From the NCBI GenBank assembly GCA_943704525.1, contig CALSCQ010001978.1, positions 1 to 24,491 on the forward strand: a stretch of 24,491 nt of DNA, read 5' to 3'. The position numbers and the translations under genes were made by a program. This document shows, piece by piece, positions 8,328 through 24,385 of the stretch. The notes below the pieces were generated by a model, which saw only the letters and a list, made by a program, of their open reading frames with translations, had not been told where the DNA came from and ran no database searches. This DNA comes from Pigoraptor vietnamica (taxonomy: Eukaryota > Opisthokonta > Filasterea). Positions within the stretch are counted from its first letter, which is position 1. Each line of letters starts with the position of its first letter.

Positions 8328-11300
8328 TCATGCCTCCCATGGCGCCAGTTGCCTCTCTTGCACAGGCGCCGATTGCGGCGCATTCGCAGCCACGTGCTTC
8401 GTGTACGAGTTGAAGAGCATGTCAAAGTTCGTCTCAATCGGCTGCGATCGGCTCAGCATCACCTGCACGAGCGACGGAAGGGCAACGTGGGCACCGTTGC
8501 GTGAGTGAGGGCACACAGAATTCGGCAATGGCAGAAAGACAGACAGACACACACACACACACACACACCACACACACACACACACGCACACACACACACG
8601 CACACACACACGCACACACACACACAACACACACACACACACGCGCGCGCGCGAGGCACCACACACCTTGACGAGCGCCTTCTTCCGCTGGAGGAACGAG
8701 ACAAAGGCGTTTTCGAGCGCGGGCGACTTGAGCGACGTCTTCTCAGCGTTCTCCAGCCAAATCACAATGACATCTTGGCCAAACTGCAGTGGCGGTCACA
8801 AGGGTCAGCAGTCAGAGAACACGCGTGGTATGGGAACACATATTGGAGCAAATGCGTCCTGTGTGCATGGGCGGCAAAACACGGGGTTGACACCGAGTGC
8901 GTTGCGCACATGTGGCGCGCGTATGTGCGCAGGCAGTCCGGACGGAACGAGCTCGCACTCACCTCGTTTTGCAGCGCGAGCATTTGCTCGAGGTCGCGCG
9001 GAAAGCCGTCAATGACGTACGCGCGCTTTCCCCGCGCGTTCACCGGCGCCGGTGTCTCCTGCGCTTGCGCCTCGCCGCCCTCAAACGCCGTGCGCGGGGC
9101 TGAGGACGACCCACCCGCCGCGGACGACGCGTTCGTGCGCGACGACGACGCGAGCTCCGAGGGTGCGACGCGGGCCCCGGGGAGTGGAAGGGCCTTGCCT
9201 GTGCCGTTGATTGCCGTCTTGAGCAGGTTGATGCAGATCATCTGGCGGTGAGAAGAAAAGATCGCCGGGTTCAGTGAAATGGTTGGGGTGCGACGATGGG
9301 CCACACACACGCACACGCGCACAAACACACACACACACACACACACACGCGCACACACACACACATACACACACACGCACACACCCCACACACTCTTACG
9401 CAGTACGCAGACGCACACAATGGGTGCCACTTCTCGCACGCAGACGCGAGTGCTCACCGTCGGCGGCACAATTCTCTTTGAGTTGATGAGTTCGAGAATG
9501 CGTTCCTGTCCCGTGTGGTGCTTGGCCGACCGCTGCAAGAGGTCGATAATCGAGAGGTACGTCGCGCCAGTGCGGTCCGCCAGGAGGCGCGCGTGCGTTG
9601 TGCGCCCAGAGCCACTCTCGCCTGCAAGCGCATTCCGCACGTGAGTTCGCGATGTTGCGCTTGCGATGTACGCAGCAATCGCGCGAAGAGTGTGCTTATC
9701 GACAAACATACACAAGGCAACACGCACCGACGACTGCGACGATTTCAATGTTATTGCCGCCGCTGAAGAGCTTGTGGCTGCGATCGATGTTGCGCTCCTG
9801 CGTCTTGAGCTCAATGCGCTGCAGACAGCACATGTGTGAGCCTTATAACAGCGAATGGCAAAATTACACGCACACACAAGCACGATGCGAGTATGCGCGC
9901 GCACGTGGGACTACTAACGCACGTGTACAGCAGCCCCACACACTAGTCAACGACAGGAAACGCACCCGCGCGACCTGCGCGACCACTTCGTGGCGCTCCC
10001 TGCGCTTTGCCTCAGAGCGTTCGAGTGTGCGAATTTCGTCGTGGACGGCCTGGTTGTGCTCGCACACGTCCAGTCCGATGATTTCGTCGCGCGCCGACAC
10101 GCGCATGTTGAAGCGGCGGAGAATGAGGAACAGCACGCTGCCGAGCACAAGGCCCCACGCTGCGCAAGGAGAGGGCGCGGAGTAAGCACGGCTGCCACCA
10201 AATTAATGACGCTCACGTGTCTGCCGTTATTCGCATGTCAGACTAGGCTACATCGCCCCAGTGGGCCGAGAAAACTCCCCGCGTACGAAGACATTCTTCA
10301 GCCGTGTCCGGACAAACAAGAGGGAGACATGGAGATCCCAACAACTGACACCCCACCGGCGATGACGACGATTTCCAGCAGCTGGATGCCAAGCAGTTCG
10401 GCGCCGCCGCCATAGAAGAGGCCGTAGCCGTGCGATATGTCGCGGTGCGCGTACACCTGCGCACGTGCGGCGTAAGCGTGCATTCTCAGCAGCAACAGCA
10501 CGGGCGCTTTCGTCTCACAGGAAAACACACAACCGCACGCGCAGCAAACACAGACCAAGGGGCCCAATGATGCTCCCACCTGCATGGCGTAGTCCCTACG
10601 CGTGAAGAGCCCGCACGCGAAGAGCCCCCATATGCCGCAGAAGCCGTGGAGGGCGATTGCACCGACAGGATCGTCCACGCCCATCCGCACGACCAGCCGC
10701 GGCCCAAAGTTCGCCACGAGGCTGCCGACGGCGCCGACAAACACGGCGACGAGAGGCTCGGTCGTCGCACATCCGGGTCTGCGAGAGCGGACAAGACGCC
10801 GTCACGATGATGTCATCACGCTCACATACAGTGCAGGGCGCGGAAAACAAGACGACATCTACGGAGACAGTTTGTGAGGAAGCTCTCGTCACGCCAAAGG
10901 CTCACACGATAGTTCACTCGACCCTCGCCGTTAAGTGGCTCAAAGTACTCACGTGATGGCGACGAGGCCCCCGAGCGCGCCCGCGCACGTGTCCATTACG
11001 TCATATTGCCCGACCTTGCCAAACACGGCGGAAAACAGAACACCCGTCATCATGCCCGACGAGAGCGCTGCGTGCGTGCTTGGTCACGTGAGCGCGAGAA
11101 TAATGTGCTTGTCAGTTGTGCGTGCGTGTGCGTGTGCACGTGTTAGTAAGCGCTTGGGTTTCCGAATGCGAACAAAGGACGAGATTGGGTTGACATGACG
11201 CGGCAAGAGAGAGGGGCCCACCGATGAGCGACACGACGGCCACGCGCGCAGAGACAAGGTGGAGATCCGCCCCGGAGAGGCCGCCCGTGGAGCCTGCGTT

Positions 11301-13016
11301 GAAGCCAAACCACCCGATGGCCAGGAACATCGTGCCTGCCGAGCGCGCACGTGTCGAAGTAGAAGGGGAGGGGGAGGGGGTGTGTTTAGCGTGGACGAGA
11401 ACAAACACCGCCACTTAACCGCACAAGCGCACACGCACTGCTGACTCGCATCCATCGCACAACACCCACCGAGAATAAGGTACAGCGGCTTGTGCCCAGG
11501 AATGGGCTCGAGGCCAAGCACCGACCGCCGCATGTACTCCTCCACCTCCTGAATTCGCTTGCGCAGCTCCCGCGCCGTCTCGCTGTTCGCAGACGACGTC
11601 ATTGAACCCTGCCGCTCCGTGCGCTCCCTCTGCACCTGCGCGTGCTCGCCAGACGCCGACGCAGACCCGCCCATCGCACTCGTGGCGCCGTCGCGCGTCT
11701 CGTTGACCGTCACGTTCGGCGTGGCACCGCCCGACCCCGAACCGCCCGTGCCCCTGGTGGAGACTTCAATCTGCCCAAGATCGCCGAGGCTGACGGTGGA
11801 CGAGTCGGTGGAGAGGTTCGACAGGGTCGCCTGCGAGCCGCGGAGGCGCGCCCCGATGATCTTGGCGCCCGCAAGGCCTGGGTGAGGGGAAGAGGGAGGG
11901 TGAACGCGTATGGAATGTTCAGCGTGCGTGCGAATTCAGACAGAACAATGGAGGGGACGAGAGGTTGCGGGAGTAAGACTGTACACAGGATCGATTAAGG
12001 GAGGACATGAATACGAATTGACAGCGCCAAAGGAGACGAAAAACGGGGATTGTGGGCACGCGGCGACGGCCAGTCACAATGTCGGACACCCACTGACACA
12101 TCCGCCGAGAAGGTGCACTGGACCGCCACCCGCAAAGTCCTGCGAACGGGGACGGGGTGATGGACTGTCACGTGACTGTCCAATGTCCACTCGTACCGTA
12201 CTGCGCAACAAACGCCACTTGCAAAAGGAAGACTACGCAGAGCACTCGATCTACACAAGGCACACCCACCACTACTCCGAATTCGCCGAGTCGCCGCAAA
12301 AAGCCCTCTGGCGCCCACACCTGTGATGCACACGACGCAGTCAGAACATATGAACTATGCAGGCGCAAATCCACCGCACACTACGCACAGACTACAGACT
12401 GTATCCGCATGTTCGCAACCGCACACGCACGTGCGCACGCCCACCCACCCAGTGCGTCGTGAAGGGATATATGAAGGCACCCATTAAGAAGGCGTAGATG
12501 AGGTACATTGGGTAGCGCGTGCGCTCCGAAATGGCGCCGCTCAGAATGGTCGTCGAAGCCATCGCAAACGAGCACTGCGGTGTGTGCGCGTGCGCACGTG
12601 TGTGAGCCGTCACGAGTGCCAGATTGCCTATATCCATCACACCCTCTCTCTCACTCGCGCACTTTTCTTCACAACCCTCTCTCTCACTCGCACCTTTCCA
12701 TCACCCTCTCTCTCACTCGCACACTATCCATCACACCCCCTCTCTCTCACTCGCACACTTTCGCGAAACCGTGCACGTTCTGACCCAGCGCCGCAGAGCA
12801 CAAGCCCCTCCGCACCTGGAAGAAGACCTTCGCCATGAGGAGCGGCGGCAGTTCGTGGAGCACAAAGTAGTCCCTTCCGGAGAACCCGTTTCCGTTGCCA
12901 AAGCCAAACGCATAGCCCATGACAAAGTAGCCCAGACCACACGCGCCCATGTCACCCAGGTTCTGCGGGATGCGCGCCGTCAGAACACACAGCAACAGGC
13001 GTAATAGTGTAGTGAC

Positions 13017-13052
<36 letters not shown>

Positions 13053-13232
13053 GTGCTTTGGCGCATTAACAGAGACGAGCCAACTCACTTTCATCGCAAT
13101 ATTTGTGAGATTTTTCTTTCGTACGCAGCCGGCCTCGAAGAGAAGGAAGCCCACTTGCATGACCACCACGAAAATGCCTGCGCATGGAAGTGTGAGGTGT
13201 ATGCGTGTTTGTGTTTGTGTGTGTGTGCGCGC

Positions 13233-13288
<56 letters not shown>

Positions 13289-13782
13289 CTGTGTGTGTAC
13301 GTGCGTGCGCGTGTGTGTCTGTGTGTGTGTCTGTGCGTGTATGTACGCGTGCGTGCGTGCGTGTGTGTCCGTGTAGTGTGTGTGCGCGTGCGTGCGTGTG
13401 TATGTATGTGTGCCTGTTTGCGCCGTATGCGTTCATCTTCCATTCCCCTTGACCCCTTGCAGCCACGCACCCATAGTGAGCAAATGTAGCACGTCGGTTG
13501 CATCTCCCGCAGTCTTATCGGCCGCTTGAAGTGCGGCAATTTGCTACAAAGCAGCGCACGCGTGAACTCGCGCGCATGTGTCGACTCTCACAAACAAACA
13601 CAACCGAGAGATACACCACGCTTACAGCCACTGTTTGCACGCGAATGCGGAACGAAAGTGCGCTTGGCTCGACCAAGACGCAACTATTACCGGTGCGTCG
13701 GCGTGTGCATGCGGCTCACCTTTTGGAGCAGCGCAATTTCGGACAGCGCCGCCTGCGCAACTGGCTCCGATATGTTCGACAT
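8328..13782 (-). CDS. ammonium transporter fused to an adenylate-kinase-like domain
   Basis: Eighteen minus-strand exons, all phases consistent, give 836 residues: 13782-13720, 13543-13471, 13177-13089, 12962-12816, 12574-12449, 12320-12270, 12139-12094, 11877-11470, 11335-11222, 11067-10953, 10778-10580, 10456-10357, 10159-9966, 9818-9728, 9621-9458, 9241-8963, 8783-8667, 8462-8328. Residues about 50-540 are an Amt/Mep/Rh-type channel for ammonium across a membrane: [38 protein letters not shown] with first pore His192, [27 protein letters not shown] with second pore His455, and cytosolic [18 protein letters not shown] cytosolic insertion of about 100 residues (about 213-322) with a charged helix separates TM5 and TM6. 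A helical linker (residues 540-597) leads to an adenylate-kinase-like fold: P-loop [10 protein letters not shown] with Arg612 for the usual Lys, IIDLL, and [12 protein letters not shown] (DGFPR 738-742). An Ala/Ser-rich insert lies between these, and the Arg-rich LID is not recognisable. Enzymatic activity is therefore doubtful; nucleotide sensing is an inference. A separate gene starting at 9833 is a less likely reading. Confidence 0.8.
8543..8653. repeat. (CA)n microsatellite in transporter-kinase intron 17
   Basis: CA repeat with a terminal (CG)n run. It fills about half of the intron between exons 17 and 18; on the sense strand it is (TG)n and begins about 14 bases after the donor AAG|GTGTGT. 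Confidence 0.95.
9302..9392. repeat. (CA)n microsatellite in transporter-kinase intron 15
   Basis: About 90 bp of CA repeat with CGCGCA interruptions, inside the intron 9242-9457; it reads (TG)n on the sense strand. Confidence 0.95.
12634..12768. repeat. CCCTCTCTCTCACTCGCAC minisatellite, four imperfect copies
   Basis: Four imperfect tandem copies of a roughly 25-38-bp unit (CATCACACCCTCTCTCTCAC plus CGCAC and variable links) lie in intron 4 of the transporter-kinase gene. The sense strand reads as a GA-rich (GTGAGAGAGAGGGTG) array, so each copy carries a GTGAGA that looks like a splice donor. Confidence 0.85.
13016..13055. repeat. (TG)n microsatellite in transporter-kinase intron 3
   Basis: About 40 bp of TG repeat inside the intron 12963-13088. 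Confidence 0.93.
13195..13412. repeat. (TG)n microsatellite with internal (CG)n run
   Basis: About 218 bp of degenerate TG repeat containing a 20-bp alternating CG block at about 13227-13247. It fills most of the intron between exons 2 and 3 of the transporter-kinase gene (13178-13470). Alternating purine-pyrimidine DNA of this length and CG content can adopt Z-form. Confidence 0.95.

Positions 13783-14378: not shown

Positions 14379-24385
<10,007 letters not shown>

Follow-up and report, generated by a model that had tools for sequence, protein, structure and literature searches.

A gene on the minus strand of a 24,491-nucleotide stretch of DNA from the filasterean Pigoraptor vietnamica (GenBank assembly GCA_943704525.1, contig CALSCQ010001978.1; the whole stretch is called the window here) very probably fuses an ammonium channel of the Amt family to an adenylate-kinase-like (AK-like) domain, this being a well-supported gene model and not a proof. 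Judged from its sequence, the Amt half resembled sensor Amts, and the other half was a true member of the adenylate kinase (AK) fold but a degenerate one, a pseudo-adenylate kinase. An AK-like half devoid of most catalytic residues, joined to a sensor-type Amt, pointed to a signalling or regulatory protein and not to an ordinary transporter or enzyme. The interpretation favoured here, tentatively and at a little under an even chance, is that of one gene for an ammonium sensor or transceptor, in which the pseudo-adenylate kinase would serve as signalling or regulatory module.

Gene model and junction of the two parts

The source assembly comprised 32.5 Mb in 1395 contigs, and the window was one contig stretch. 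The gene was divided as follows.

8328..13782, minus strand: whole gene model, Amt channel, linker and AK-like domain, 18 exons, 836 aa (spliced translation; Pfam)
9966..13782, minus strand: exons 1-13, coding for an N-terminal stretch, the Amt channel (roughly aa 42-548), its conserved motif on the cytosolic side and the initial portion of the linker (spliced translation, Pfam, PDB matches)
9819..9965, minus strand: intron 13, 147 bp, phase 0, between Amt exons and AK-like exons (splicing, splice-site scoring)
8328..9818, minus strand: exons 14-18, with remaining linker and AK-like domain, aa 576-836 (spliced translation, Pfam, PDB matches, profile comparison)

Splicing of the 18 exons (13782-8328) yielded a single frame of 836 residues, the stop of which ended at 8328. 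All 17 introns displayed GT..AG ends and all 17 donors started with GTG. Pfam recognised both parts on this same model, Ammonium_transp (PF00909) with E 1.1e-92 (311.3 bits, cut-off 23.2) and ADK (PF00406) with E 1.1e-6 (29.3 bits, above the cut-off of 26.8). A preliminary description of this DNA had proposed an Amt-AK fusion in one reading frame and a domain search of the 836-residue product; splicing and Pfam bore out the fusion and the search found both domains. Its account of the junction was likewise reproduced by splicing: exon 13 ended in phase 0 at 9966, before a GTGCGT donor, and exon 14 opened in frame at 9818.

The alternative to be weighed at this point was a gene-model artefact, i.e. 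two adjoining genes, namely an Amt that stops within intron 13 and an independent AK-like gene that begins near the in-frame ATG at 9833. Both splice sites of intron 13 were scored with a matrix built from the other 16 introns of the gene. The acceptor at 9819 was weak, being equalled by 64 of 209 decoy AGs in the gene (the acceptor of intron 1 scored lower still), and this weak link counted against a fused gene. A TATAAG was found 8 bp upstream of this ATG; it is probably too close for the role of a TATA box and would fit a separate gene only if the motif were something other than a TATA box, or a TATA box out of place. On the other side, the donor at 9965 was strong (of the gene's 450 decoy GTs only three scored as high) and must splice to something downstream. 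Just 147 bp separated the two parts, which is within the span of the other 16 introns (106-293 bp), and phase 0 was preserved. Read-through from exon 13 into intron 13 led to stop codons, and GC3 of exons 14-18 (0.73-0.84) was covered by the spread among exons 1-13 (0.46-0.87). A stretch of 55 residues spanning the junction (aa 540-594) contained no Gly and no Pro, which also speaks against two genes; a helix could thus cross the junction uninterrupted, and this segment is probably helical. Two adjoining genes were considered very unlikely.

The Amt half and its relatives

Besides PF00909, the Amt half was matched by NCBIfam model TIGR00836 with 329.2 bits, below the cut-off of 343.3; the match came in two stretches, perhaps split by loop 5. 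The twin histidines (H192 and H455), the Phe gate (F127 and F344) and the outer filter (W168 and S350) of the pore were all kept. The conserved cytosolic C-terminal motif was present, so that both pore histidines and the cytosolic helix of the preliminary description were found. In PDB the highest matches were Ks-Amt5 (6eu6, 136.3 bits), 8qpf (132.7) and 8qj3 (132.6), the latter two presumably also being signalling Amts. Amts of the assimilatory type scored lower (Mep2 113.2 bits, Af-Amt1 and AmtB about 111).

Ks-Amt5 of Candidatus Kuenenia stuttgartiensis is an ammonium sensor composed of an Amt fused to a histidine kinase. According to PMC5764959, it binds two ammonium ions via Q24, E31, N47, D50, T51, T109 and T112, its pore is narrowed by F27, Y30 and F34, and its loop 5, of 19 residues where 10-12 are common, adjoins the C-terminus of the neighbouring subunit and may couple both domains. 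The corresponding features of the window protein were:

13134..13157, minus strand: Q53 to E60 (QVGFLLFE, exon 3), matching Ks-Amt5 Q24 and E31 (alignments; PMC5764959)
12951..12962, minus strand: N76 to D79 (NLGD, exon 4), matching Ks-Amt5 N47 and D50 (alignments; PMC5764959)
11495..11845, minus strand: loop 5, some 117 residues in length owing to a long insertion (aa 210-326), at first rich in Ser, Gly and Ala and then charged (spliced translation)

The aligned counterparts of the Ks-Amt5 site were Q53, E60, N76, D79, M80, T133 and S136. Five of the seven residues (Q24, E31, N47, D50 and T109) were identical and T112 was replaced by Ser. After removal of two duplicate loci (L042 and L043), all members of the set Q-E-N-D-T109 were present in both PDB rows and in 16 of the 17 fused bacterial rows of the alignment (the 17th displayed E for Q).

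Several bacterial relatives carried output domains. In two rhizobial genomes, both preselected for holding a frame of Amt-GGDEF-EAL type, that protein matched the window Amt with 180 and 164 bits versus 84 and 100 for the other Amt. A search of 299 genomes in the phylum of one Rhizobium gave matches in 279, and the best 150 rows were considered. Frames of at least 700 aa made up seven of the ten best rows versus 15 of the 150, whereby rows are not independent and the seven include the starting genome, chosen for its fusion (six of nine without it). Among these ten, the first three were unfused. The seven fused rows were assigned by Pfam in four cases (GGDEF-EAL, MCPsignal, HisKA/HATPase and HATPase) and by eye in three. 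Pfam runs on bacterial fusions L032, L049, L050 and L053 displayed PAS-GGDEF-EAL, MCPsignal, HisKA/HATPase or HATPase. First pattern scans for relatives in genome and viral contigs matched 37 and 54 stretches, none of which was confirmed. A second scan of genome contigs gave 71 matching stretches and 10 confirmed loci, each from rhizobia or their relatives. Three of these frames were read whole (L032 with Pfam; L035 and L038 alike by eye), and the remaining seven were judged fused from frames of 1081-1113 aa with like tails.

As separate observations, L049 joined a bacterial Amt to the signalling domain of methyl-accepting chemotaxis proteins (MCPsignal, E 1.7e-32), which in sequence suggests ammonium chemoreception via Amt. 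In three unfused bacterial loci (L046-L048) the Amt was each time followed by an open reading frame of 206-218 aa, alike by eye.

At least five other Amt loci were found in the P. vietnamica genome by family search. Two spliced models, C82 and C994, displayed plain tails, as did C915 and C1114 by eye; C994 (L026) was an unfused Amt 35% identical to the window Amt. The fifth, on C528 (L029, 4033-6032, plus strand), ran in frame into ankyrin repeats. Its 268-residue model, which covers the C-terminal part only, matched Pfam Ank with E 1.6e-29 and Ammonium_transp with E 1.3e-7, and its second pore His appeared by eye to be Gln (DVTSLQAVPG). Two different Amt fusions in one genome would fit a lineage that uses Amt domains as modules.

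In a tree of 46 rows (IQ-TREE; loop 5 removed from the window row, PDB rows entered in aligned pieces), both the window gene and C994 fell on the sensor side, from which C82 and three of the unfused bacterial Amts stood apart.

Several observations weighed against a sensing role. All transport residues checked were kept, and the window Amt may still transport. The T51 counterpart was Met (M80); T51 was likewise missing in 8qpf and in all 17 fused bacterial rows. Only one of the three pore-narrowing residues of Ks-Amt5 was matched (F27 by F56, with F59 and C63 at the other two positions); in the 17 fused bacterial rows, too, F27 was the only match. Ten of these 17 rows were near relatives from rhizobia, found with patterns from the Amts of the P. 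vietnamica genome itself. The set Q-E-N-D-T109 occurred in three of 24 unfused bacterial rows (L046-L048), which were the top three rows of the 299-genome search; it was also carried by the unfused C994 and not by C82. Plant AMT1 transporters share part of the Ks-Amt5 site. The sensor side of the tree included 21 unfused bacterial rows, and the window gene was not nested inside the bacterial sensors but stood at the base of that side on a branch of 2.47, with a warning of long-branch effects. Since the site was found in unfused bacterial rows and in C994, it is no proof of sensing; it marks a subfamily that includes sensors and is insufficient alone to prove that function.

These observations bear on a second alternative, a plain transporter in which the degenerate AK would be inert or scaffolding and would only tether or sort the channel, without any ammonium signal. 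Its pore kept every transport residue checked, the sensor-type site is also found in unfused Amts, and the C528 Amt of the same genome is fused to ankyrin repeats, which are typical interaction modules. The sensor-like site and the very long loop 5 speak against a plain transporter, and paralogue C994 manages without such a domain; this alternative was judged rather unlikely.

The AK-like half and neighbouring genes

Features of the second half were as follows.

9596..9621, minus strand: degenerate P-loop GESGSGRTT (aa 606-614), with its first base in exon 14 at 9728 and R612 at the position of the catalytic Lys (PDB and MAFFT alignments)
9032..9205, minus strand: low-complexity insertion of 58 residues (aa 673-730), ends set by eye (translation, alignment)
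8996..9010, minus strand: DGFPR motif (aa 738-742), R742 being the counterpart of AK1 R97 (PDB and MAFFT alignments)
8715..8735, minus strand: site of the missing AK LID segment, around aa 770-776 (alignment by MAFFT to three AK domains from this genome)

When only the last 261 residues were searched, the Pfam ADK match improved to E 5.3e-8 (33.6 bits, cut-off 26.8). PDB matches were headed by AK1 and included AK5 and UMP-CMP kinases (best E 1.1e-6); they aligned in two pieces, from the P-loop to the NMP region and around DGFPR, and the low-complexity insertion divides the domain in two. A profile comparison with the three tandem AK domains of the P. vietnamica genome gave a probability of 96.3 and 29% identity over 115 columns, stopping before the LID. 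ADK-family alignments thus far stopped short of the last third of the domain, which was aligned by MAFFT and by eye only. The P-loop and DGFPR had both been named in the preliminary description: both were recognised and DGFPR was kept, while the P-loop quoted there had one Gly too many.

The degeneration was extensive. Six Lys/Arg positions of AK1 (K21, R44, R97, R132, R138 and R149), whose catalytic roles and numbering we take as applicable here, were compared, and only one was kept (R97 as R742). K21 was replaced by R612 and R44 by Q635, and the AK1 stretch holding R132, R138 and R149 had no counterpart in the alignment. The LID gap falls inside exon 17, hence the LID is absent from the DNA itself and was not removed by splicing. 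NCBIfam kinase models remained far under their cut-offs, TIGR01360 (adenylate kinase iso1) with 38.3 against 284.1 bits and TIGR01359 (UMP-CMP kinase family) with 39.2 against 207.6 bits. With these residues lost, the domain is probably no enzyme and unable to transfer phosphate, and binding of ATP appears doubtful.

The preliminary description had instead proposed that a covalently attached, AK-like nucleotide sensor gates a functional ammonium channel and would thereby tie uptake to energy state, the role of GlnK/PII in bacteria. Part of this stood, namely one gene model with both an Amt and an AK-like domain, with the transport residues checked present (F127, W168, H192, F344, S350 and H455), the conserved C-terminal Amt motif kept and the AK fold recognised with its P-loop glycines and DGFPR. 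That the domain is an intact nucleotide sensor found no support: with Arg for the P-loop Lys, Gln for R44 and the LID missing, a damaged P-loop would have to bind nucleotide. The scores far under both kinase-model cut-offs also argued against gating by nucleotides, as did the PDB comparison, in which the Amt half was nearer to Ks-Amt5 than to channels of the assimilatory type; such gating was regarded as unlikely. The resemblance of the Amt half to sensor Amts, overlooked in that description, suggests ammonium as input and a signal as output over nucleotide as input and a gate as output.

No close paralogue of the AK-like part was detected in the same genome, the best match outside the window having E 0.92. 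When 43 Amt frames were searched with a profile of the three own-genome AK domains, no AK-like domain was found below E 1.7 (two of the frames were duplicates, and loci from the 299-genome search ended about 500 aa past the Amt part); with the window protein, which served as control, this profile reached E 5.9e-10. The 17 fused bacterial frames were likewise without an AK-like domain as far as the loci reach.

Intact-looking AK domains were present elsewhere in the genome, three of them in tandem on C1363 (L031). C473 (L030) displayed two ADK matches in long frames, which resemble AK9, a flagellar protein with several AK domains. At 14865-16558 on the minus strand of the window, upstream of the Amt-AK gene, pieces of a protein kinase (PF07714), HNOBA and a guanylate cyclase (PF00211) were found, which may together form one receptor-like cyclase gene. 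Still further upstream, EGF-like cysteine-rich segments were seen by eye.

Proposed working and comparison with known systems

If the favoured interpretation of an ammonium sensor or transceptor applies, ammonium that has passed the outer filter would fill a pocket between helices 1, 2 and 4. Occupancy of this pocket would displace both loop 5, with its long insertion, and the C-terminal segment, and the shift would be relayed to the AK-like domain through the linker of aa 540-594, the putative helix. Amt proteins are trimers (PMC5764959), so that three AK-like domains would lie beneath one trimer. Rather than transfer phosphate, the AK-like domain would more likely alter how it contacts partner proteins or loop 5 of the adjacent subunit, and some residual nucleotide binding is conceivable. 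The more specific proposal of a eukaryotic ammonium receptor, whose Amt would bind ammonium at the Ks-Amt5-like site and signal to the pseudo-adenylate kinase, is possible but was rated somewhat less likely.

Fused Amts are known from bacteria, whereas in the open-licence literature an AK-like output module was found described for no Amt. Searches of that literature found no described Amt-AK fusion, in agreement with the preliminary description, and no Amt-ankyrin fusion was announced in titles among the papers listed. Yeast Mep2 is a eukaryotic Amt with a proposed sensing role and without a fused domain. Dictyostelium AmtA resembles the window protein as a eukaryotic Amt proposed to be an ammonium sensor, and the passages of PMC10559540 used here mention neither an AK-like domain nor any other output module fused to it.

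The AK-like half shares with the adenylate kinase iso1/UMP-CMP family an alignable P-loop to NMP-binding region and DGFPR. It differs by the Lys to Arg and R44 to Gln replacements, the lack of a LID and the 58-residue insertion. Bacterial fusions L032, L049, L050 and L053 are like the window protein in being among its closest prokaryotic matches, in displaying Q-E-N-D-T109 and in carrying C-terminal output domains; they are unlike it in having no AK-like domain within the reach of the 17 frames, and the window gene stood outside them in the tree.

Ks-Amt5, the best PDB match of the Amt half, is likewise an Amt with a C-terminal cytosolic fusion, five identical site residues and a lengthened loop 5. 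It carries a histidine kinase in place of the pseudo-adenylate kinase, a loop 5 of 19 residues instead of about 117, T51 instead of Met and two different residues among the three that plug the pore; it is also bacterial, whereas the window gene is eukaryotic and intron-rich. The one sensor Amt whose site and output were described in the literature used here is bacterial (Ks-Amt5, PMC5764959). A natural eukaryotic fusion would supply one testable protein with named residues (E60 and D79) and a pseudoenzyme output. Together, the Amt-AK and Amt-ankyrin fusions of one genome suggest that eukaryotes, too, may employ Amt domains as plug-in modules for input, and the window protein, if the sensor interpretation is true, would be a eukaryotic counterpart of the bacterial Amt-kinase and Amt-cyclase sensors.

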